Source: Pseudobdellovibrionaceae bacterium (GTDB lineage Bacteria; Bdellovibrionota; Bdellovibrionia; Bdellovibrionales; Bdellovibrionaceae). Taken from it: 64,000 bases of DNA. How positions within the stretch are numbered: position 1 is the first letter of the stretch; each line of letters begins with the position of its first letter. The DNA lies in NCBI GenBank assembly GCA_019637875.1, contig JAHBUW010000018.1, positions 1 through 64,000 on the forward strand, written 5' to 3'. The notes below the pieces were generated by a model. That model had not been told where the DNA came from. It did no database searches and was given only the letters and a program-made list of their open reading frames with translations. This document shows positions 19,157-40,822 of this stretch, piece by piece. Made by a program: the position numbers and the translations under genes.

Positions 19157-19279
19157 ATGCCGAAGAAACCGCAAGCGGCCGCGCCCCGGGGCCGCCCGGG
19201 CCTGCTCCAGAAATACGAAACTCTTGCTCGACCCCTTCAGGGGGACGGAGAAGAGAAAGCCGTCTATTTTTTGATTTAA
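19157..19279 (+). CDS. Small basic protein next to the tRNA-Pro integration site
   Basis: A 40-residue frame (MPKKPQAAAPRGRPGLLQKY...) with GAGGTGAGG eight bases before the ATG. It carries an AT-hook-like RGRP motif and has the GC-rich composition of the chromosome. Its stop lies 3 bp before the left att repeat, so it belongs to the chromosome and would have converged on the tRNA gene before island insertion. It could be an intact small protein or an N-terminal relic; I do not recognise it. Confidence 0.45.
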   Translation: MPKKPQAAAPRGRPGLLQKYETLARPLQGDGEEKAVYFLI

Positions 19280-19281
19280 AA

Positions 19282-19292
19282 ATTGGTCGGGG
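19282..19292. repeat. Left attachment-site repeat of the island
   Basis: ATTGGTCGGGG is repeated exactly at 40526-40536, where it covers the 3' CCA end of the tRNA-Pro gene. Composition changes from GC-rich to mixed here. Large serine recombinases typically leave short identical att cores like this. Confidence 0.7.
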
Positions 19293-21677: not shown

Positions 21678-22876
21678 AAAGACTTATTCTTATTTTTTCC
21701 CTCCTTCTTTCTTCACGAAGCGAGGCGGCTTGCCCGGAGCCGATAAAATCGGGCTATGAAGCCTACCAATGCATTTTGGAACAAAGTCCAAGTATGCAAG
21801 CCCTGAGATACAGAGCTGACGAGGTACAAGCCCTTTCTGAGAAGGCAAGGCAGCTACCGAATCCTGAACTCGATGCGGGTATTGAATTTAGCGGCGAGAA
21901 GAAAACAGAAGTCAGTCTTTTACAGCCTATCGAACTTGGAGGTAAGCGCGGGGCGCGCCTGGAAAGGGCTCAGGCTGAAACCTTTCTACTCTCGGCCAAG
22001 GATGTCGAGAGTCAAATCGAAGCCTCCAGCTCGGCTCTAGGGTCGCTGATTCGGCTTCGCCAGCTTAAGTCCGAAAGTGATCTGGTGAAAGGCAGCCTTT
22101 CGATTCTTGAGCGAGTTAATCGGAAGCTGAAAGCTCGCCCAGCCCTGTCGCCTGAGCAGAAAACAGCGCTCCACTTGTTTTCTACCTTTGAGAAGACCTT
22201 AAGGTTTCGCCAGCTCACCATTGAAAATGATTACCAGAAGGCGACTTCATTTATTGAAGCCGCTATAGGTAGAGCAATCACGAAGAACGACCGCATTTCG
22301 GTTGGTAGCTTCAAGAAATGGCCTACCCTCAATTTCGATACGTTGAACGGACAAACCGCTTCGCTCCAGGTATCACTAGCCGAGCTGAAACTTGCAGAGT
22401 CGGAACTAAAGGCGGCTCAAAGTGAAAGTTGGCCTGATTTCAGAATTGGCCCCAGCATGGAGAAGCAGCCCGAGCGAAGTGAAACCTCCTGGGGGGTTAA
22501 ACTTGGCGTTACGCTACCCCTTTGGAATTTTAATGGCGGCGGGCGTGACCTTGCGAAGGCGCGCCTGAAGTCTGCGGAAGCCTCCATTGAAGCATTGAGG
22601 CGGCAGCAGACAAGTGAGCTAGGCGCTTTGCAAAAGCAATATGCCGCCCTCACCAAAGTTCTCTCTGAAATCGAACCAGTTTCGGAAGTAATAGATTCGG
22701 TCAAAGGCAGTGAACGCCTCTTTGATCGCGCGTTGATCTCACCGGCTTCCCTGATTGAAACCTACCGTTCGACGTTCGAGCTTGTTGAGGAAATTCACCG
22801 CAACGAGATTCAGGCGATGTTGATTTGGTCGGCGGTTGAGAATCTCAAAGGGACATTTCCAAAGGATCTTCCATGA
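21674..22876 (+). CDS. TolC/CzcC-family outer-membrane efflux channel
   Basis: 400 residues with signal peptide (to about SRSEAA) and the paired-helix pattern of outer-membrane efflux proteins: QLPNPELDAGIEFSG, LQPIELGGKRGARLERAQAE, and the second repeat DFRIGPSMEKQ ... GVTLPLWNFNGGGRDLAKA. CzcC-type proteins form the outer-membrane exit duct of RND metal pumps. It sits second in the arsR-tolC-adaptor-RND operon with 4-bp overlaps on both sides. Confidence 0.87.
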   Translation: MKRLILIFSLLLSSRSEAACPEPIKSGYEAYQCILEQSPSMQALRYRADEVQALSEKARQLPNPELDAGIEFSGEKKTEVSLLQPIELGGKRGARLERAQAETFLLSAKDVESQIEASSSALGSLIRLRQLKSESDLVKGSLSILERVNRKLKARPALSPEQKTALHLFSTFEKTLRFRQLTIENDYQKATSFIEAAIGRAITKNDRISVGSFKKWPTLNFDTLNGQTASLQVSLAELKLAESELKAAQSESWPDFRIGPSMEKQPERSETSWGVKLGVTLPLWNFNGGGRDLAKARLKSAEASIEALRRQQTSELGALQKQYAALTKVLSEIEPVSEVIDSVKGSERLFDRALISPASLIETYRSTFELVEEIHRNEIQAMLIWSAVENLKGTFPKDLP

Positions 22877-23304
22877 AATATCTGTTCGTTCTCTTCATCG
22901 TCGTGTTTTCTTTCAAAGCCTTTTCGGAAGAGGCCGAGGAAGAAAAAAAAGGGCGCGTCGGCCCCGGAAAAGCCGTAACTGAGGCTTCCGAAAAAGATGG
23001 GCTTAAAATCTCGGAGAAGGCTCAAAAAAACTTAGAACTGGAGTTTATTGCGGCCTCCAACAGCTCCACTTTTTCCGTACCGACGGCGGCTCTGGTTCAC
23101 TTCCAAGATTTCTCGGCAATCTATCGGGAGCGGGGTGGCTGGTTCAAAATGGTGGAGATTGAACCCATCATTCGCGGCTCGGTAGCTCAGTTTACTTCAA
23201 AAGATATTTCGCCTGGGGATCGCATCGTTGTCAGGAACTCAGGATTCATCCGAGTGATCGAGCTCGACGTGTTCGGACCAGAGGCGGACGCCTGTGCGGA
23301 TTGA
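22873..23304 (+). CDS. Very short RND periplasmic adaptor-like protein (mini-CzcB)
   Basis: A 143-residue exported protein in the position where a CzcB adaptor of about 400 residues is expected. After the signal peptide (MKYLFVLFIVVFSFKAFS) and a charged linker, the sequence KISEKAQKNLELEF, STFSVPTAALVHFQDFSAIY, MVEIEPIIRG and DISPGDRIVVRNSGFIRVIEL matches only the beta-barrel/membrane-proximal parts of RND adaptors. The lipoyl and hairpin domains are absent. The gene is intact, with overlapping start and a 3-bp gap to the RND gene, so it looks like a purposely small subunit rather than a frameshift product. Confidence 0.7.
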   Translation: MKYLFVLFIVVFSFKAFSEEAEEEKKGRVGPGKAVTEASEKDGLKISEKAQKNLELEFIAASNSSTFSVPTAALVHFQDFSAIYRERGGWFKMVEIEPIIRGSVAQFTSKDISPGDRIVVRNSGFIRVIELDVFGPEADACAD

Positions 23305-26668: not shown

Positions 26669-27220
26669 ATGGTCTTTGATGAAAGCTCTAGCGACGAGGT
26701 GCTGATGCAGGCTTATCAGAACGGTGATAACCGCGCTTTTGAGCTGCTTTTTCAGCGACATTCATCGCGCGTGTACGGCTTTCTCTTAAACCAATTGAAA
26801 GATCGGGCGCAGGCAGACGATGTTTTTCAAGGAACGTTCCTCAAGCTGCATAAAGCACGTCGGCATTATGATCCGTCATTCCCCTTTGGACCTTGGCTCT
26901 TTACGGTCTGCAAGAGCGTCCTGGTGGATCATTTTAGGCGGAAGGGACGAAATCGAGAAGATCTTCGCGAAGATCTCATTGCGGCGGCCGTCGACGAAAG
27001 AACCCAGGAGAAGAGTGGACCTGCTGTTTCTCTCGAAGGTCTTCCAGCCAATCAAAGGGTCGCGATCGAACTTAGATTCGGTGATGAGCTTTCATTTGAG
27101 GCAATCGCTAAGAAGCTCGAAACGTCGCCTGCGAATGTTCGCCAACTTGTGAGCCGTGGCATTCATAAACTTAGATCCCTTCGCGCGCATAAGGAGCATG
27201 GTGATGACGACGAAAGATAA
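26669..27220 (+). CDS. ECF-type RNA polymerase sigma factor
   Basis: 183 residues with sigma-2 (AFELLFQRHSSRVYGF, QADDVFQGTFLKLHKAR, residues 19-60; FGPWLFTVCKSVLVDHFRR) and sigma-4 (LPANQRVAIELRFGDELSFE, IAKKLETSPANVRQLVSRG, residues 120-168). No C-terminal Cys-rich domain like that of CorE is present, so metal sensing must lie in a partner. The next gene overlaps its 3' end and encodes a membrane protein that fits an anti-sigma factor. Target promoters are predicted at 26624, 27765 and 33456. Confidence 0.9.
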   Translation: MVFDESSSDEVLMQAYQNGDNRAFELLFQRHSSRVYGFLLNQLKDRAQADDVFQGTFLKLHKARRHYDPSFPFGPWLFTVCKSVLVDHFRRKGRNREDLREDLIAAAVDERTQEKSGPAVSLEGLPANQRVAIELRFGDELSFEAIAKKLETSPANVRQLVSRGIHKLRSLRAHKEHGDDDER

Positions 27221-27755
27221 AAACATCTCAAAGGAATTTGGCGAATTCCTCTCTAGTCCAGAAGTCATACCACCATTGGCTCTTCGCGACTCGATTCTTT
27301 CGACTGTGCAGAAGGATTTGAACCCGTCCGGCACACAGGTGTTCTTAAGAGTTATTGGGGTCCATACTGTTGTAAGCCTTTTCTCCCTCTCGATCTGCTC
27401 GCAATTCGGATTGCAGTCTTTTAAGATTTTCGATGCCATGAATTGGGCGATGTCTTACGTCGGCCATGCGTATTGCATGGCATTTTGCGGGCTTCTTTAT
27501 CTTGGAATAAGTGCGCTTGCTTTGAGCCTTCTTCTCAAGCCGGAAGATGTTCGGGTTTTAAGACAGCATCGCTTCCTTCAGGTGACTCTTCTGTCCGGCG
27601 TTTCGTTGGGAGTTTTCCTATGCCTGGGAGCTCAGATTCTGCTGATACCGGGAGCGCTCTGGATTACGGGCGCGATTATCGGAGGTGTTTCTACGCTGGA
27701 ACTTGGATGGCTTGTGCGCTCCAAGTTCAGACGCCAACTCGTATTTGGCACATAA
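27204..27755 (+). CDS. Membrane protein, candidate anti-sigma factor for the ECF sigma
   Basis: With the ATG at 27204 (AAGGAG seven bases before) the product has 183 residues: a cytoplasmic N-terminal 45 residues (KEFGEFLSSPEVIPPLALRD) and four TM helices. TM2 carries HAYCMAFCG, a His-Cys-Cys cluster that could bind copper or sense redox state. It overlaps the sigma gene by 17 bp. Polytopic anti-sigma factors with short cytoplasmic tails are known (for example the NrsF/DUF1109 type); I see only functional analogy, not clear homology. Confidence 0.65.
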   Translation: MTTKDKNISKEFGEFLSSPEVIPPLALRDSILSTVQKDLNPSGTQVFLRVIGVHTVVSLFSLSICSQFGLQSFKIFDAMNWAMSYVGHAYCMAFCGLLYLGISALALSLLLKPEDVRVLRQHRFLQVTLLSGVSLGVFLCLGAQILLIPGALWITGAIIGGVSTLELGWLVRSKFRRQLVFGT

Positions 27756-27815: not shown

Positions 27816-28451
27816 ATGCAAAAGAGAATTTTTCTTCCCGTGTTTTTCGCGCTCTTGTTTGCACGGGTGGCTTTGGCTCATCCGGTCGCATACCAAGGGG
27901 CAACGGGAGTCATGACGTGGAATCAGCCTTTTATGTCAGACCACTGGATCACCTACAGCTTCCGACCTGATATGGCCGTCGCCGGCAGATTCATGCGAAT
28001 GGAAATGCCTGAAGGGCGCCTTAACTACTCCGGTGCTCAATTTGATTACCTGGCCTACAGAGACAATGGCGACGATCACCAAGCTAATATTTACGTTTAC
28101 GGAAGCGGTGGAAACGTACATTTTAGTGGATCAAATGCCGGTGGTTACCTCGTCGGTGCCGAAGCGGACGCTGAGAACCGAAAGTATTTTGGACTCATAA
28201 AAGCAGAAACCATGCGCTCAAGCATCGCTCCCGATTTCAATCACGTCGAAGGAAGACTAGGTATCGCACCTTACGAAGCAGAATACACCGAGCTTGCGAC
28301 TTGGTTCATGGTCCAGGGTCAATGGCATCCGAGTCTCGAAAAAAAGTTTGTCGTCACACCGCTTGCGCGGCTTTTCTACAAGAGCTTTCTTTTGGAAACG
28401 GGCGTGAGCCTTGACGGTGATTGGATGATGAACTTCATGTTTCACTTTTAA
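27816..28451 (+). CDS. Exported protein of unknown function, possibly a small outer-membrane barrel
   Basis: 211 residues, signal peptide (MQKRIFLPVFFALLFARVALA), then alternating strands (GVMTWNQPFMSDHWITYSF, NYSGAQFDYLAYRDNGDD, NIYVYGSGGNV) and a C-terminus MMNFMFHF with terminal Phe, as in outer-membrane barrels. Met and His residues are frequent, which would suit copper contact. AAGGAG precedes the ATG. First gene of a unit with the HMA protein and the MerT-like protein, behind ECF promoter site 2. Confidence 0.7.
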   Translation: MQKRIFLPVFFALLFARVALAHPVAYQGATGVMTWNQPFMSDHWITYSFRPDMAVAGRFMRMEMPEGRLNYSGAQFDYLAYRDNGDDHQANIYVYGSGGNVHFSGSNAGGYLVGAEADAENRKYFGLIKAETMRSSIAPDFNHVEGRLGIAPYEAEYTELATWFMVQGQWHPSLEKKFVVTPLARLFYKSFLLETGVSLDGDWMMNFMFHF

Positions 28452-30392: not shown

Positions 30393-32792
30393 TCAATCGA
30401 GGCTCGCACGTCTAAGCCTCAGGGCGTTCCCGATCACCGAAACCGAACTGAGACTCATCGCAAGGCTTGCGAACATGGGGCTTAAGAGAATTCCGAAAGA
30501 CGGATAGAGTAGGCCCGCCGCTAAGGGAACGCCAAGGACGTTGTAAATGAAAGCAAAGAACAAATTCTGACGGATGTTCTTCATCGTTTCTTGGCTTAAG
30601 CGGTGAGCCCGAACAATGCCGAGAAGGTCTCCTTTGACAAGAGTGACACTTGCAGACTCCATTGCGACATCCGTTCCGGTCCCCATGGCGATTCCGACAT
30701 TGGCTTGCGCCAAGGCTGGCGCATCGTTGATGCCGTCACCGGCCATCGCGACGCGCTTTCCCTCGGCTTGTAGCTTACTTACGACGGCATTTTTCTGCTC
30801 GGGCAGCACCTCAGCTTCAAAGCTGTCGATACCAATCTCTTTCGCGACGGCCTCAGCCGTGTACCGGCTATCACCAGTGAGCATAATGACTTCAATCTTC
30901 TTGGAATGAAAATAGGAGATTGCTTGTTTGGTGGTCTCCTTGATCGGGTCTTTCACCGCAATTACACCCGCTGGCTTCTGATCGATCGCGATGAGCATGG
31001 CTCCGTGGCCGGTTTTCTGAAGATCTTCAGCAGCGCGCACGAGCTCTTGCGCTTCGATTTTGAATTCGGACATCAAACGCTTGTTGCCGATCAATATTTC
31101 CCGACGTCCGACATTCCCCTTTAGCCCACGACCCGTCAGCGACTCGAAGTCTCTTGCATCTCGAAGTGCCAATCCACGCTCTTTAGCACCTGATACGATT
31201 GCCTCTGCGAGAGGATGCTCGCTCACTTTTTCGAGCGAGGCTGCAAGCAAAAGGACTTCGTCATCGCTATACCCAGGCAATGCCTTCACGACTGCTAACT
31301 TCGGTTTTCCGACCGTGAGCGTTCCCGTTTTATCAACGATCAAAGTCGTGATCTTCTCCATGGCCTCAAGTGCTTCAGCGTTCTTAATGAGAACGCCGTG
31401 AGTTGCACCTTTGCCAGTGCCGACCATGATCGACATTGGCGTCGCAAGCCCCAAAGCGCACGGGCACGCGATGATAAGAACGGCAACTGAATTCAAGATG
31501 GCGTAAGTCATCGCAGGCTCAGGACCAGCGAAAAGCCAGACAAGAGCAGTCAAGATTGCGATGGCGACGACAGCAGGAACAAAGTAGGCCGCAACTAGGT
31601 CTGCTAGCTTTTGGATGGGCGCTCGGCTTCTTTGGGCCTGAGAAACCATCTTTACAATCTGTGAAAGAAGCGTGTCAGCGCCAACTCTCGTCGCTTCCAT
31701 AACGAACGTGCCCGAACCATTGACAGTTGCACCGGTGACCGATTGACCTTCGGTTTTCTCAACTGGAATTGGTTCTCCTGTGATCATGGATTCATCGACA
31801 GAGCTTTTCCCGTCAACAACGCGTCCATCTACGGGGACCTTCTCTCCAGGCCGAACACGAAGGCGATCTCCAACGTGAACATGTTCGAGCGGAATGTCTT
31901 CTTCCGTTCCGTCCGATTTTACCTTCCGAGCGGTTTTCGGGGCTAAGCCCAGAAGCGCTCGAATGGCGTTCCCGGTTTGATTGCGAGCGCGAAGCTCAAG
32001 AACTTGTCCTACGAGAACAAGCGTCGTGATGACAGCCGCTGCCTCATAATAAAGTGGGATCATCCCGCCGTGGACTCTCACGCTCTCAGGAAAAAGTCCC
32101 GGAAAAAAAGTAGCAAACACGCTATAGACGTACGCAACACCCGTTCCGATCGCGATCAGCGTAAACATGTTGAGATTGCGCGTTTTGACCGAAGCCCAGC
32201 CGCGCTCGAAAAACGGAAGTCCACCCCAAAGGACAACGGGTGTTGCAAGTATCAACTGGATACCCGCGTAGAGCCATTGAGGGATCGCGTGCTGCACAGG
32301 TTGACCAGGGATGAGGTCCGACATTGCCAGCAGAAAAAGCGGAATCGAAAGAGCCGCACTTATCTTTAGACGCTTCGTGAAGTCGATGAGTTCCGGATTC
32401 TCCGCGTCTTCAAGACTCACTTCTTCTGGCTCAAGCGCCATCCCGCAGATAGGACAATTGCCCGGACCTTTTTGCCGAACTTCAGGGTGCATAGGGCAAG
32501 TGTAGATCTTTTCCTTGTCTGCGGCTGAAACCGGAGCCGGATCTTCTTTTTTTAGAAACTTGAGTGGCTCGGCTTCGAACTTGGTTTTGCACTTCGGATT
32601 GCAAAAGAAATAGGTTTCGTCTTCGAAGGTCGAGCTTCCGCCTTTGGCATTTTTTGGATCGATCATCATTCCACATACCGGGTCCTTGACCAGAGATGGT
32701 GAGACTTCCGCCGACTTCTTTATTGAACAGCAGGAATGTTCTTGGCCGTGGTCATGGTGCTGACCGTGGTTTTGGTTGTGGTCGTGTTTCAT
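30393..32792 (-). CDS. copA: Copper-exporting P1B-type ATPase with N-terminal YHS and heavy-metal-binding domains
   Basis: 799 residues. Order: His-rich start ([17 protein letters not shown]), YHS-like domain ([11 protein letters not shown] ... YFFCNPKCK, about 34-80), heavy-metal-binding domain (YTCPMHPEV ... CPICGMAL, about 95-122), TM helices, CPC in [11 protein letters not shown], phosphorylation DKTGTLT, and hinge [13 protein letters not shown]. The CPC motif places it with Cu+/Ag+ exporters. The classical N-terminal CxxC HMA domain is replaced by YHS/HMBD. The ATG at 32792 follows GGAGGA. It leads an operon with DUF305, CusF-like and small exported genes, behind a CueR-type dyad. Confidence 0.93.
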
Positions 32793-32871
32793 ATGATCCT
32801 CCGATCGTGTTTCGCCATCGGTGAGCCTTGGGAACGAATTCAAGCTTCACAGGCGGAACAGATCCAGGATC

Positions 32872-32896
32872 GACCTTCCAAGCGTTGGAAGGTCAA
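32872..32896 (-). promoter_or_regulatory. CueR-type operator/promoter of the copper ATPase operon
   Basis: GACCTTCCAA-GCG-TTGGAAGGTC is a perfect 10-bp dyad preceded on the minus strand by TTGACC as -35 box. CCTTCC...GGAAGG dyads between -35 and -10 are the hallmark of CueR promoters. The start of the ATPase gene lies 80 bp further on. Confidence 0.8.
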
Positions 32897-32986: not shown

Positions 32987-33017
32987 TTGACCTTCCAATA
33001 GTTGGAAGGCGTAGAGT
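32987..33017 (+). promoter_or_regulatory. CueR-type promoter of cueR
   Basis: -35 TTGACC at 32987, -10 TAGAGT at 33012, spacer 19 bp, with the dyad CCTTCCAA-TAG-TTGGAAGG inside the spacer. The long spacer is what MerR-family activators correct by twisting DNA. Suggests autoregulation. Confidence 0.82.
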
Positions 33018-33048: not shown

Positions 33049-33441
33049 ATGAATATTGGAGAAGCGGCAAAAGCGTCAGGGATCAATGCCAAGCTTATAC
33101 GCCATTACGAATCGATAGGAATTATCCCAAAGGCTGGTCGAAGCGACGCCGGGTACCGAGTGTACTCAGACACGGATGTTCACATTTTGTCGTTTGTCAG
33201 AAGAGCCCGAAGCCTGGGTTTTTCGATGAAAGAAATCAAAAAGCTTGTCGGTCTTTGGCGGAATCGCTCGCGGGCCAGTAGCGCGGTCAAAGCCCTCGCC
33301 CAAGCGCACGTCAAAGCACTTGAAACGAAAATCAAGGAGCTTGAATCGATGCGAGACACCTTGCGCCATTTAGCAAGGAATTGTCACGGCGATAGTCGGC
33401 CGGACTGCCCCATTTTAAAGGACTTGGCAGGAGCGGAATAA
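33049..33441 (+). CDS. cueR: CueR-like MerR-family copper-responsive activator
   Basis: 130 residues: winged HTH (MNIGEAAKASGINAKLIRHY, AGYRVYSDTDVHIL), dimerisation helix and the C-terminal metal loop CHGDSRPDCPI, which has the C-x7-C spacing of CueR and so predicts Cu+/Ag+ sensing. It would activate the ATPase operon and its own promoter, both of which carry matching dyads. GGAGGAG-like site before the ATG. A separate ECF-type promoter follows it, before the oxidase gene. Confidence 0.92.
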   Translation: MNIGEAAKASGINAKLIRHYESIGIIPKAGRSDAGYRVYSDTDVHILSFVRRARSLGFSMKEIKKLVGLWRNRSRASSAVKALAQAHVKALETKIKELESMRDTLRHLARNCHGDSRPDCPILKDLAGAE

Positions 33442-33526: not shown

Positions 33527-36043
33527 ATGAGAACCCTTCATTGGCTTATTTTTTCGTTCGTAACGATGTTCATGAGTGTCCCTGTGTTTGCCAAGACGGT
33601 GCGATACGAACTCGTCGTCAGAAATGAGAAGGTGAACTTAAGCGGCAAAAAAGAAGTGGATTTTGCCCTGACCGTGAATGGCGGAATTCCTGCACCAACT
33701 CTAGAATTCATCGAGGGTGACGATGCTGAGATCCTTGTGAAGAACGAAATCCCGAACGAAGAGGTCTCAATCCACTGGCACGGGATCTTACTTCCGCCTG
33801 AAGAGGACGGTGTTGCTTATGTCAATACGCCACCAATCCATCCCGGCAAATCGCGCCTTTTCAAATTCAAGATCCGCCAGAACGGTACTTATTGGTATCA
33901 CTCGCACACTGCGGTCCAAGAACAAAAGGGCGTCTACGGTGCGTTGGTTATCCACCCGAGGAAAAAAGCAATTGCTTACGATAAAGATGCGGTTGTTGTC
34001 TTAAGTGATTGGTCTGACGAGAACGCCGATCAGATCATCAGAAATCTCCGAAAAGATGGTGATTATTATCTCTATAAGAAGGATTCCGTTCGATCCTACT
34101 TCGGAGCCGTTCAGGCGGGCGGCTTGAAGACGCATCTGCAAAACGAGTGGGAACGCATGGGAGGCATGGACCTTTCGGATGTGGGCTATGACGCGTTTCT
34201 GATCAACGGCAAGCGGAGTTCTCAACTTTTGACGGCTCATCCTGGAGAAAGAGTCAGAGTTCGGATTATCAACGCGGCGGCATCGAGTTACTTCTACGTT
34301 TCAATGGGCATTCCAATGACTGTCATCGCGGCCGACGGCGTTGATATCGAGCCCGTGCAAGCCAAAGAGCTTCTCATGGGGATGGCCGAAACTTATGACA
34401 TCCTGGTCACACTACCGGAGCATAAGAACTACGAGCTTCGTGCCACAGTTCAAGACGTTACGGGATACGGTTCGACTTGGATCGGAATGGAAAGTGCTCC
34501 GAAGGTCGTCGCTCCCGACAAACCTCTTCCTGACTTGTATGCGTCGATGGACCACAGCGGACACGGTGGCGGTACAATGTCTGGCATGGATCATAGCGCC
34601 CACGGTGGAGCCGCTCATTCGAACGGTTCAGCTACGGATCACAGCAAGATGGACCACTCCAAGGTGGACCATTCGAAAATGCGCGGCGATCATATGAGTC
34701 ACGAAGGTCAGAACGCCGAAACTGGGCATGCAAGACATACAGAAGCTTCGACAGGAGGAGATCATCGCGGGCACGGACCATCGGCTCCCGGCTCGCCAAC
34801 GACGGGAAAGGCTAAACCTGCTGCTGGTGGAGGGCATGCAGATCACTCTGCACACGCGATGCACCAGTCGCATGGAGGAATGGACCACTCGAAACACTCA
34901 AGACCCGAACCTGCGAAGACAAAAAAGAAAAAAAGTAGCAGTGCGGATTCGATGCCTTTGACCATCGCTCCAGGCCCGATTGATTGGAGCAATCAATCCG
35001 ATGCCATGTTGAAGCAAAATACTGCTTCACGGAATTTGGAACCTTCATCTTCAAAGCCTCCGATCGAAACTCTGACAGTGGACTCATTACAGGCGCTTCA
35101 GCCGACGACTCTCCCGAAGGACGCCAAGGTACACGAGCTCAAGCTTGTCCTTGGCGGAGATATGGAGCGATACGTGTGGCACATCAATGGTAAGGCGATT
35201 CATCAAGACAGCTTGCTTCGAATCAACAGCGGCGAGGTCGTTCGAATTGTTTTTCAGAACGACACGATGATGCATCACCCGATGCACTTACATGGACACT
35301 TCTTCAGAGTCGTCAACGCGAATGGTGAAAAGTCGCCGCTCAAGCACACGGTCGATGTTCCGCCTCACGGAACGCGAACCATCGAGTTCTATGCGAATGA
35401 GCCCGGACAATGGATGCTCCACTGCCATAATCTCTACCACATGAAAACGGGCATGGCGCGGATCGTGCGCTACAACGATTTCAAACTGACGCCTGATATG
35501 GAGTCGAATGTCCATAGCGATCCGCATCTTCATGAGCACTGGTACAATCACACTCGGCTCGAAGCAGCCAGCAATCACGCTAAGGGTCAATTCCGACTGA
35601 TGCGCACTTGGGACGAGCTTGATCTAGAAATTGAAACAGCAGAGATCGAAGGGAAGAACTTCTCATTTGGCAAAAAGTGGGAAACAGAAGGTGATCTCGT
35701 CTATCGCCGCTGGTTTTCAAACTTCTTCAACGTCTTCGGGGGCGGAACCCTGTATCACGGGGAGGGATTCGGCACGGTTGGCGTCGGCTACACGCTTCCG
35801 ATGCTGATTGAAACGGCTGTTTCCGTGAATCACGAAGGGCGCTTCCGCCTTGATGTAGAAAAGCGTTTCCAGTGGACCAAGAACGTCCTCTCAGATGCCG
35901 AATTCACTTGGCGTCCCAATTGGGGTGGCGAGCGCGATACAGAGTTTGAAGTCAGCCTAATGTACGGCCCTTCGTGGACTTGGGCCGCAGGACTCATGCT
36001 AACCGAAAAGAGCGCCGGTATCGGTGCGCAGATCCAGTTCTAG
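33527..36043 (+). CDS. Multicopper oxidase (CopA/PcoA type) with His/Met-rich insert and C-terminal CopB-like barrel domain
   Basis: 838 residues. Signal peptide (MRTLHWLIFSFVTMFMSVPVFA), cupredoxin domains with all four copper motifs: HWHG (about 83), HSH in YHSHTAV (about 126), HHPMHLHGH (about 584) and MLHCHNLYHMKTGM (about 633). Residues 340-465 are a His/Met-rich insert with DHSKM-like repeats. After the oxidase end, residues 690-838 (NFFNVFGGGTLYHGEGFGTV to GAGIQF-like end IGAQIQF) form alternating strands with a terminal Phe, resembling CopB. These oxidases convert Cu+ to Cu2+. The ATG at 33527 has GGGAG before it. Confidence 0.88.
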   Translation: MRTLHWLIFSFVTMFMSVPVFAKTVRYELVVRNEKVNLSGKKEVDFALTVNGGIPAPTLEFIEGDDAEILVKNEIPNEEVSIHWHGILLPPEEDGVAYVNTPPIHPGKSRLFKFKIRQNGTYWYHSHTAVQEQKGVYGALVIHPRKKAIAYDKDAVVVLSDWSDENADQIIRNLRKDGDYYLYKKDSVRSYFGAVQAGGLKTHLQNEWERMGGMDLSDVGYDAFLINGKRSSQLLTAHPGERVRVRIINAAASSYFYVSMGIPMTVIAADGVDIEPVQAKELLMGMAETYDILVTLPEHKNYELRATVQDVTGYGSTWIGMESAPKVVAPDKPLPDLYASMDHSGHGGGTMSGMDHSAHGGAAHSNGSATDHSKMDHSKVDHSKMRGDHMSHEGQNAETGHARHTEASTGGDHRGHGPSAPGSPTTGKAKPAAGGGHADHSAHAMHQSHGGMDHSKHSRPEPAKTKKKKSSSADSMPLTIAPGPIDWSNQSDAMLKQNTASRNLEPSSSKPPIETLTVDSLQALQPTTLPKDAKVHELKLVLGGDMERYVWHINGKAIHQDSLLRINSGEVVRIVFQNDTMMHHPMHLHGHFFRVVNANGEKSPLKHTVDVPPHGTRTIEFYANEPGQWMLHCHNLYHMKTGMARIVRYNDFKLTPDMESNVHSDPHLHEHWYNHTRLEAASNHAKGQFRLMRTWDELDLEIETAEIEGKNFSFGKKWETEGDLVYRRWFSNFFNVFGGGTLYHGEGFGTVGVGYTLPMLIETAVSVNHEGRFRLDVEKRFQWTKNVLSDAEFTWRPNWGGERDTEFEVSLMYGPSWTWAAGLMLTEKSAGIGAQIQF

Positions 36044-36070: not shown

Positions 36071-36442
36071 ATGATGAAAATACTAATGACGTTAATCGCG
36101 ACTGTTTTCCTGGGTTCCTTCGCATCGGCAACTTCACCTAAGAGTTCGACCTGGAAAATCGTGCCGAACGAGGAAGTCTGCATGGTGACGAACATGCACT
36201 TTGCTCGGCCACAGATCCCTGTCGCAAAGGATGGAAAGACTTATTACGGTTGCTGCGAAAACTGTAAGGCAACGATCCAAACGGATGCGACCTCAAGAAC
36301 AGGGACTGATCCTTTAACGCAAAAACCTGTCGACAAAGCTAGGGCCACAATCGCTGCCGATGATCGGGGTGCAGTTCTCTATTTCGCCAGTCGGTCTAAC
36401 TTCGATCAGTACATCAAACAGATTGCCGGGAAGTCGAAGTGA
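36071..36442 (+). CDS. Exported TRASH/YHS-like Cys-rich metal-binding protein
   Basis: 123 residues with a signal peptide (to ASA, about residue 20). EEVCMVTNMHFARPQIPV and TYYGCCENCKATI give a C...CC-x2-C cluster like TRASH-type metal sites, followed by VDKARATIAADDRGAVLYF. Small proteins of this pattern occur beside copper genes and probably carry or sense copper in the periplasm. It lies 27 bp after the oxidase gene, in one operon. Confidence 0.78.
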   Translation: MMKILMTLIATVFLGSFASATSPKSSTWKIVPNEEVCMVTNMHFARPQIPVAKDGKTYYGCCENCKATIQTDATSRTGTDPLTQKPVDKARATIAADDRGAVLYFASRSNFDQYIKQIAGKSK

Positions 36443-38595: not shown

Positions 38596-38799
38596 ATGGC
38601 ACGCACTCGAAAGTTCAGCGCCAAGCGCGCGGCTTTGGAAGAGATGCGAGTCGATGTGTTTTTGGGCGAAGGAAAAGGCCAAAGCGGTCCTGAAGCAAAG
38701 GAATCTCTTCGTCGCCTTTTGAGTTCGATGGTCCTTAATCTTCATCGGCGCGGTCGCCCGAAGAAGAATAAGGACGAGGAGATTTTCTGTGAAGTATAA
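38596..38799 (+). CDS. Small basic protein with AT-hook-like motif before the recombinase
   Basis: 67 residues from ATG 38596 (TTGGAG before it); a start at 38557 would overlap the XRE gene. Charged and helical (KRAALEEMRVDVFLGEG, ESLRRLLSSMVLNLHRRGRP), ending RGRPKKNKDEEIFCEV, an AT-hook-like motif. It overlaps the recombinase start by 11 bp, so translation is probably coupled. May be a recombination directionality factor; that is speculation. Confidence 0.55.
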   Translation: MARTRKFSAKRAALEEMRVDVFLGEGKGQSGPEAKESLRRLLSSMVLNLHRRGRPKKNKDEEIFCEV

Positions 38800-40822
38800 A
38801 ATCGGCGTTTATGTGAGGGTCTCAACCGACGAGCAAGCGCTCCGTTCGGAAGGATCGCTTGAGACTCAGAAGCACCGAATTGTGGGCGAGATCGAAAACC
38901 GAAACCGACGTGATGGTGGATTCGGTAAGGTCGTTGAAATCTACGAGGATGACGGCTACTCCGCAGTTGCGGTCCGCCCAGCGTACCAAAGGCTCATGCG
39001 AGATGTTCACAGCGGGAAGATCAACATGATCTTCATTGCCGACTACTTCCGCCTTTGCCGTCACCTTTTGGATTACCTGACGCTCGCGGATCGCCTGAAG
39101 AAGATCGGAGCGCGGGTTCTTTCGGTCAAAGATAACTTTGATACTGAGACCGCTATGGGTCAGTCGATGATCCGAACCCTTATCAACATGGCCCAGACGG
39201 AGCGAGAACTGACGGCGGAACGCGTGGCGATCAACTTCCACGCTCGCGCACTTCGTGGACTGCGAAACGGTGGCCGCGTGCTCTACGGCTTTGACCGGAT
39301 TGAGGACGATCTTGCACGTCTCAAGGTCAACGATTCAGAAGCTGCGGAGATTAGGGAAGTCTTCCGTACCTACATCGAAGAAGGCACTTTGGCACGCGCC
39401 GTTGACCGGCTGAACGAGTCAGGTCCGTTTCGTAAGACCAAGAGCTACAAGAACTCGGACGTCGTGAAGACCGAGAAGTGGAACCGGATGACTCTCAACA
39501 TGGTCCTTCGGAATCCTGCTTACCGGGGCATGCGCGAGATCAATCGCGAAAATAAGGGTAAGGAGCAGGAGACCTTGAAAGAGGTCGAACGCCACCAGAT
39601 CGTGAAGGCCTCGTGGCCTGCGATCGTAAGCGAAGCGGACTGGAGCCAAGTGCAAGAAATGCTCGATCACGCGGGCTCGGCGGCTCGGGCTCGCCTTGCC
39701 ACTAAAACTCGCCGGGAATATCCACTGACGAGCGTTTTCACTTGTGCGGAATGCGGGCGCGCTATCATGGGCGCATCCGGGCATGGTCGGAAGTCCGTTC
39801 ATCGATACTATGTCCACGGAAAGCTCAAGGGTCAGAAGATCACTTGCTCGATGAATTGGATTCCGGCTGATGACATTGAGCCGAAGGTTTTTGCGATCCT
39901 GGACCGCATTCTCGAACAAGAAGGCTACCTCGACACCCTTGAAGACCGTTTCCGGTCAAACGTCGACACTCAAAGAACCGATCTTGAGCGCGAGAAGTCG
40001 ACGATAGAAGCGTCAGTTGCTGAGATCGATCGGGAGATCAAGAGTACGATCCAGGTCCAAACGCGCACGGCTGACCCTTCAATTGATGACGTGTTCCGAG
40101 AGCAGCTCCGGGAACTTGCCGACAAAAAGCGGATGGAAACGGTCCGACTTTCTGAAATCCAAAACCGCTTGGCTGATCTGCCAGACCCCAAGGCTGCTCG
40201 AGAGGCGTTCAGAATCAACGCACAGGCGTTCAAGAAAGCGTTTGCGAAGTCCAACGAGGCGACGAGGAAAAGACTTGTAGCGAGCGTTTTCGAGCGTATT
40301 TCGTTCAACAAGTTCGGTCTCGACCTCCACCTCAATCCCCACATCGCCTCCGCCGAGGCGGTCCAAATTCTTCAAAAAGAGAAGTCCTCGGAGCTTCGCT
40401 CCGGGGACTCTTCCCTCTACTCCAACATCCTCATTTTCAATCAACAGGTCCGAAAAAAGAAAACCGCCGGACCCTTCGCCCTTGCGGGCTGGGATCAAGC
40501 GGTCAATACGTCCTCAGTTGTAAAGATTGGTCGGGGCGACTGGATTCGAACCAGCGACCTTTTGCTCCCGAAGCAAACGCGCTACCAAGCTGCGCTACGC
40601 CCCGACGGTGGGATCCGGAACCTTAAGGAATCCGGCTTTTTCGGGAGGAGTTCAAGAGATTTCGCGAGTTTGCCCGCTAACAACTCGCATTATGCTGAAC
40701 AAGAGGTCAGGGTGCGATCACCGACGCCGTGGAAGAGCCGCGGTGAACCGAGTTGCTCCCGCTGCCGCCAGGGCTATCGCCGCCCCCGCCCCCACCCACG
40801 CCGGGACCGGCCCAAACGGTGA
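38789..40822 (+). CDS. Large serine recombinase (island integrase), frame running through att site and antisense tRNA
   Basis: GTG start, 677 residues. Catalytic domain: YVRVSTDEQ with nucleophile Ser12, then DNFDTETAMGQSMIRTL and ERELTAERV; recombinase domain (LRGLRNGGRVLYGFDRIED, LARAVDRLNESG, MVLRNPAYRGM); zinc ribbon (FTCAECG ... ITCSMNW, about 318-352); coiled coil (about 390-470). Residues 580-584 (KIGRG) are coded by the att repeat. The final 94 residues come from antisense tRNA-Pro and flank (GDWIRTSDLLLPKQ), so this tail exists only in the integrated state. See the finding on C-terminal exchange. Confidence 0.88.
   Translation: MKYKIGVYVRVSTDEQALRSEGSLETQKHRIVGEIENRNRRDGGFGKVVEIYEDDGYSAVAVRPAYQRLMRDVHSGKINMIFIADYFRLCRHLLDYLTLADRLKKIGARVLSVKDNFDTETAMGQSMIRTLINMAQTERELTAERVAINFHARALRGLRNGGRVLYGFDRIEDDLARLKVNDSEAAEIREVFRTYIEEGTLARAVDRLNESGPFRKTKSYKNSDVVKTEKWNRMTLNMVLRNPAYRGMREINRENKGKEQETLKEVERHQIVKASWPAIVSEADWSQVQEMLDHAGSAARARLATKTRREYPLTSVFTCAECGRAIMGASGHGRKSVHRYYVHGKLKGQKITCSMNWIPADDIEPKVFAILDRILEQEGYLDTLEDRFRSNVDTQRTDLEREKSTIEASVAEIDREIKSTIQVQTRTADPSIDDVFREQLRELADKKRMETVRLSEIQNRLADLPDPKAAREAFRINAQAFKKAFAKSNEATRKRLVASVFERISFNKFGLDLHLNPHIASAEAVQILQKEKSSELRSGDSSLYSNILIFNQQVRKKKTAGPFALAGWDQAVNTSSVVKIGRGDWIRTSDLLLPKQTRYQAALRPDGGIRNLKESGFFGRSSRDFASLPANNSHYAEQEVRVRSPTPWKSRGEPSCSRCRQGYRRPRPHPRRDRPKR
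40526..40536. repeat. Right attachment-site repeat of the island
   Basis: ATTGGTCGGGG, identical to 19282-19292. It spans the encoded CCA end, discriminator and first acceptor-stem bases of tRNA-Pro (minus strand), so the tRNA stays intact after insertion. Confidence 0.7.
40528..40604 (-). tRNA. tRNA-Pro(CGG)
   Basis: 77 nt on the minus strand. Acceptor stem CGGGGCG/CGCCCCG, discriminator A, encoded CCA; D arm with GCGCAGCTTGGTAGCGC; anticodon stem TTTGC/GCAAA around loop TTCGGGA, giving anticodon CGG; T arm with GGTTCGAATCC. All stems pair. It reads CCG codons. It is the integration target of the island. Confidence 0.95.

Follow-up and report, generated by a model that had tools for sequence, protein, structure and literature searches.

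The window analyzed here, 64,000 nucleotides of contig JAHBUW010000018.1 from a Pseudobdellovibrionaceae bacterium with a genome of the predatory-bacterium type, contains a copper cluster in which positions 33527-36043 of the plus strand form one uninterrupted reading frame, beginning with ATG and encoding 838 amino acids. In order, the encoded chain carries a signal peptide, a three-domain multicopper oxidase, its His/Met-rich insert, a His-rich linker, and a predicted C-terminal barrel. These parts, along with the adjacent genes and regulatory sites, are as follows.

30393-32843, minus strand: copper-exporting P1B-type ATPase, divergent neighbor (TIGR01511, 597 bits; cut-off 397)
32873-32893, no strand: CueR-like operator dyad 1, ACCTTCC-N7-GGAAGGT, on the flank next to the divergent P-type ATPase gene (pattern search)
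32987-33017, plus strand: MerR-type promoter TTGACC-N19-TAGAGT, upstream of cueR and the fusion gene (read from the sequence)
33049-33441, plus strand: CueR-type Cu(I)-responsive MerR regulator, upstream gene (TIGR02044, 171 bits; cut-off 147.4)
33527-33592, plus strand: N-terminal signal peptide MRTLHWLIFSFVTMFMSVPVFA, residues 1-22, Sec-like with no twin arginine (sequence and motif comparison with relatives)
33623-33964, plus strand: multicopper oxidase domain 1 (Cu-oxidase_3), residues 33-146 (PF07732, E 1.5e-40)
34181-34453, plus strand: multicopper oxidase domain 2 (Cu-oxidase), residues 219-309 (PF00394, E 3.5e-19)
34556-34960, plus strand: disordered His/Met-rich insert, residues 344-478 (AlphaFold2 pLDDT < 50; composition)
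35132-35473, plus strand: multicopper oxidase domain 3 (Cu-oxidase_2), residues 536-649 (PF07731, E 2.2e-35)
35474-35542, plus strand: short His-rich linker with a DPHLHEHW motif, residues 650-672, 23 residues (motif comparison of tails)
35543-36040, plus strand: predicted 12-stranded outer-membrane beta-barrel, PcoB/CopB-like, residues 673-838, ending in Phe (AlphaFold2, Foldseek, VIA-align, hhalign)
36071-36442, plus strand: small secreted protein with a weak YHS/TRASH-like Cys motif, downstream (Pfam matches below cut-off)

Genes for CusF, an HMA chaperone, a DUF305 protein, a cation diffusion facilitator, and a CusA/CzcA-type RND pump are also found nearby. CueR-like dyads, expected 0.03 times per window, were observed as four strand-matches at two places, the second of which (32990-33010) lies inside the TTGACC-N19-TAGAGT promoter. 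The interval separating cueR from the fusion gene showed no inverted repeat, and these two genes are therefore probably co-transcribed. Other genes of the cluster have less obvious roles. Positions 26669-27755 carry an ECF sigma factor gene (TIGR02937) and, after it, that of a small membrane protein, perhaps the corresponding anti-sigma factor. A secreted 211-residue protein whose C terminus reads FMFHF is encoded at 27816-28451; it matches no Pfam or NCBIfam model and could be another small outer-membrane protein. Positions 22873-23304 encode a 143-residue secreted protein with no Pfam match; flanked by a TolC-like gene and the gene for the CusA-like pump, it takes the place in which one would look for a full-length periplasmic adaptor (CusB).

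The cluster sits on a lower-GC island (19277-40536), with a GC fraction of about 0.50 compared to 0.55 to 0.63 outside. At the right edge of the island is a large serine recombinase (38789-40822) whose frame crosses a tRNA-Pro(cgg) gene (40528-40604, minus strand). A 16-mer at 40521-40536 overlaps the 3' end of this tRNA and is repeated with one mismatch at 19277-19292, on the left GC border; the two copies are candidate att sites bounding an integrated element some 21 kb long.

The first-pass annotation described an oxidase followed in the same frame by a barrel, with a long His/Met insert containing DHSKM-like repeats. Both descriptions were borne out: the single 838-residue frame has 47 non-identical full-length homologues that keep its whole architecture, with tails of 183 to 206 residues, and the insert spans 135 disordered residues with four DHSK-type motifs (DHSKM twice, DHSKV and DHSKH once each). 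Because these 47 homologues have the same frame and architecture, a frameshift or an annotation artifact could be ruled out as the source of the fusion. In one relative (L097, G054:C57) the tail is split over two frames, with a TGA stop and the end of the barrel in the other frame, and this gene represents either a pseudogene or an assembly error.

By its domains and ligands, the N-terminal part of the protein is a multicopper oxidase of the copper-resistance type. All three cupredoxin domains are present, and the T1, T2, and T3 ligands are complete at 12 positions (H83, H85, H125, H127, H584, H587, H589, H632, C633, H634, H638, and M643), those in domain 3 lying in HHPMHLHGH and HCHNLYHMKTGM. 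The ligands are invariant across the alignment of the 47 homologues. The best NCBIfam model, by far, is copper_res_A (TIGR01480), at a score of 410 bits that does not reach the curated cut-off of 478.95 bits. Like CopA and PcoA, the protein also carries a Met/His-rich insert between domains 2 and 3, in which 20 His and 8 Met make up 20.7% of the residues, compared to 8% in the remaining protein. Separate CopA proteins have an insert of equal His/Met richness at the same position, so the insert is ordinary for CopA-type oxidases, and we rejected the idea that it is a peculiarity of the fusion. The proposed role as a copper sponge is plausible for this insert, as a role that would not be specific to fused proteins.

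What follows the oxidase is predicted, from sequence profiles and structural models, to be a 12-stranded outer-membrane barrel of 165 residues homologous to CopB/PcoB. AlphaFold2, run on the last 195 residues together with 47 homologous tails, produced a 12-stranded model (pLDDT 89.9, pTM 0.80), and the full-length model agreed, with strands at 673-837; the PcoB barrel likewise has 12 strands (PMC9210255). Among 350,542 solved chains searched with Foldseek, PcoB (7pge) was the top match (E 2.1e-5, TM-score 0.54). PcoB was also first in VIA-align (Z 15.6 over 159 residues), followed by VhGalP (Z 14.0) and OmpLA (13.5), making its margin over other 12-strand barrels modest; families missing from the VIA-align list were not counted as evidence. 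When all PDB sequences were searched with an HMM built from the tails, PcoB was again at the top (E 0.0036), with OmpG second (0.02). Structure prediction thus yields a transmembrane barrel closest to PcoB rather than a soluble domain. The earlier description of about 150 residues of barrel ending in Phe was right as to the barrel and the terminal residue, which is Phe in 38 of the 47 homologues, with the window protein among the Phe-ending type, and slightly off as to extent: the barrel covers about 165 residues and starts at 673, a little before 690.

Similarity of the tail to CopB, also proposed at first pass, failed in a single-sequence search and was recovered by comparing profiles. PF05275 (gathering score 27 bits) gave no match to the window tail at E<=10, and no Pfam or NCBIfam family reached its cut-off; eukaryotic porin PF01459, the sole Pfam line for the tail (E 0.24), was dismissed as chance. 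When the 47 tails were aligned by hhalign to the CopB encoded downstream of separate CopA, the match extended over 163 columns with a score of 62.8 (P 4e-9), compared to 16.2 for reversed CopB columns and 23.4 for the best of 50 column shuffles. Support was weaker for the Bdellovibrionota tails alone (P 2.7e-4) than for the other tails (P 2e-9), and the two sets of tails are firmly related to each other (P 1.3e-24). Since the kinship is visible with family profiles only, the tail is best described as a predicted distant, compact relative of CopB that falls below the Pfam criterion on its own.

Could such a tail be a generic small outer-membrane barrel, acquired as an anchor that displays the oxidase and carries no copper? 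The missing Pfam CopB match in the window tail, the closeness of VhGalP and OmpLA in the structure comparison, and the matches of single tails to generic outer-membrane protein models would all suit such an origin. A generic anchor, however, has no reason to rank PcoB above every other solved structure in three separate comparisons, or to give a profile match to CopB that stands clear of its controls. Nine of the 47 homologous tails also match PF05275 singly at E<=0.1 (best 2.7e-4), and where relatives of this oxidase are separate proteins, CopB is encoded beside them. We therefore regard an unrelated anchor as unlikely. Still less credible is a one-protein secretion device that would place the oxidase on the cell surface, as in autotransporters. 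The order of passenger and then C-terminal barrel resembles the classical arrangement, and some barrels of autotransporters were among the structural matches, at Z of about 10, but the best structural match is PcoB, and the model has a strand soon after the 23-residue linker with no long pore-filling helix. Folded cofactor enzymes, moreover, make poor autotransporter passengers. We favor a gene that encodes CopA and CopB (PcoA and PcoB) as a single chain and would position the oxidase at an outer-membrane pore, a reading that we consider very probable and that is backed by its copper context: CueR and CueR-like operators, a copper P-type ATPase, CusF, an HMA chaperone, and a CusA-type RND pump. 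Anchoring in the outer membrane, and with it the tethering of copper oxidation suggested at first pass, can fairly be inferred from the models.

The two ends of the protein differ from those of its two-gene counterparts. Separate CopB proteins carry a long, disordered His/Met-rich region before the barrel; at the corresponding position this trait is absent from the window protein and is reduced to the 23-residue His-containing linker. A DPHLHDH-like motif occurs between oxidase and barrel in 29 of 29 Bdellovibrionota tails and in 0 of 18 others, making this linker, newly described here, specific to the Bdellovibrionota lineage among the sampled tails. At the N terminus, none of the 47 fused proteins has a twin-arginine motif between the start Met and the hydrophobic core (the sole regex match, in L016, precedes the start Met and was not counted), whereas Tat signals were found in 13 of 39 separate CopA proteins in one sample and 19 of 30 in another. 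The use of Sec-like rather than Tat signals by fused proteins, as judged by motif, is a new observation and would fit a need to hand the barrel to BAM unfolded, although the association is partly confounded with kinship, as the separate CopA of Acinetobacter also lacks a Tat signal.

Fused homologues occur in at least eight phyla, with several taxon names taken from the titles of metagenome-assembled genomes (MAGs). A scan of species genomes recovered full-length homologues in Bdellovibrionota, Bacteroidota, Verrucomicrobiota, Planctomycetota, Acidobacteriota, a Geobacter MAG, and another deltaproteobacterial MAG; others are found on a plasmid of Ilyobacter polytropus (Fusobacteriota) and in some gammaproteobacterial genomes. 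Of the 192 Bdellovibrionota genomes sampled, 77 contained a sequence matching the protein to some degree, and the strongest matches fell in open frames of roughly 690 to 840 residues. Two other Bdellovibrionota multicopper oxidases, L123 and L116, have long C-terminal extensions that are not CopB, one of 277 residues containing Cys and one of 235 residues extremely rich in Met and His. The separate CopA relatives of Acinetobacter, Pseudomonas, Enterobacteria, and others stop shortly after the last copper ligand, and copB follows the separate copA at 42 of 44 sampled loci, and at 29 of 30 in an independent sample. In the genome that contains the window, a search for CopB as a separate protein gave nothing at E<=1, and the fused tail was found once.

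A tree built on the oxidase domains alone puts fused and separate proteins on two sides of one branch (support 100). When this tree is rooted with CueO-like oxidases, the separate form becomes one clade (100/99) nested among fused proteins, and its sister is a fused gammaproteobacterial clade (99/91). Because the separate form is nested in the fused family, fission accounts for the pattern with one change, while fusion needs at least three. Taken at face value, the rooted tree suggests that the separate genes arose by fission. We rejected fission as a proven outcome, as a tree constrained to a single clade of fused proteins is 4.7 log-likelihood units worse and is still allowed by the AU test (p-AU 0.061); the outgroup is distant, the branches are long, and the root is unsure.

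The same latitude in the test and in the root is what makes the opposite history, in which separate copA and copB genes fused into this protein, possible if somewhat doubtful. Such a history must contend with the position of the separate clade and the larger number of changes, and with the sampled distribution: fused forms span at least eight phyla, and the separate form is found in Pseudomonadota plus one near-identical copy in a MAG labeled Clostridia. Our own tentative proposal, which may well need revision, is that the textbook copA-copB (pcoA-pcoB) pair of Pseudomonadota is a derived state. An ancient oxidase-channel made as a single chain would have undergone gene fission, and the window protein would be one of its survivors. 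In this split, the barrel would have acquired the disordered, His/Met-rich N-terminal region to which PcoA now docks, and a move to Tat export would have become open to many oxidases.

Fusion as such is known: fused proteins were described before in Legionella (2012) and, as a PcoB-like tail, in a flavobacterium (2024). In view of these publications (PMC3548706, PMC11213822), the novelty implied at first pass is not supported. Hernandez-Montes et al. noted fused PcoA-PcoB in five Legionella species, likewise an oxidase and a PcoB barrel from one gene, in one sentence without sequence analysis (PMC3548706). The gammaproteobacterial fused proteins in our sample (L109 to L111) may be of the Legionella kind. 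They have longer, classical CopB tails of 229 to 257 residues (CopB HMM E 5e-24 to 1e-29) and are placed apart in the tree, beside the separate CopA clade, whereas the tail of the window protein is compact and lacks a recognizable CopB Pfam signature. In Bizionia argentinensis, oxidase G2EDV6 has three oxidase domains followed by a porin-like segment (residues 611-809) with some similarity to E. coli PcoB; the protein was called a periplasmic oxidase, and the fusion was not discussed (PMC11213822). Its flavobacterial relatives (L020 to L025 and L032) fall within the same fused family as the window protein and, in contrast to Bdellovibrionota, lack the DPHLHDH linker in those sampled. Neither the Bdellovibrionota proteins, nor the wide distribution of the fused family, nor a fission was treated in any paper found in the open literature searched, which likewise yielded no experimental work on any fused protein.

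Compared to the PcoA/PcoB system of E. coli and CopA/CopB of Pseudomonas, the window protein shares the insert and the 12-stranded barrel (7pge) but is encoded by one gene instead of two. Caulobacter vibrioides provides a functional parallel. There, the His/Met-rich disordered region of PcoB is needed for copper resistance and for stabilization of PcoA, and loss of this N-terminal region destabilizes PcoA (PMC12509749). Oxidase and barrel are likewise coupled there, physically or functionally, and a His-rich disordered segment is involved in copper resistance, although the Caulobacter proteins are separate products of translationally coupled genes.

According to the single-chain reading, Sec would export the protein unfolded and BAM would insert the barrel in the outer membrane, leaving the oxidase to hang from the periplasmic mouth on its 23-residue His-rich linker and to be loaded with copper in the periplasm. 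Cu(I) would reach this compartment via the neighboring CueR-controlled P1B ATPase, the insert and linker would collect copper, and the oxidase would turn Cu(I) into Cu(II) right at the pore. Fusion would fix a 1:1 stoichiometry and a proximity that separate PcoA and PcoB reach via translational coupling and a stabilizing interaction.

What is new here is the Bdellovibrionota fused family, along with a tree that places the textbook two-gene form among the fused proteins as a whole and suggests gene fission. These proteins also carry a warning for annotation: across Bdellovibrionota, Bacteroidota, and other phyla, names such as "periplasmic multicopper oxidase domain-containing protein" give no hint of an outer-membrane barrel, which Pfam mostly fails to detect. 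The fused form is a natural covalent complex and as such speaks for a single machine made up of oxidase and barrel. The direction of copper flow through PcoB is disputed, with import argued for E. coli (PMC9210255) and export for Caulobacter (PMC12509749), and the fused form makes this question testable: should a 23-residue tether hold the oxidase at the periplasmic mouth, Cu(II) would be made at the pore.
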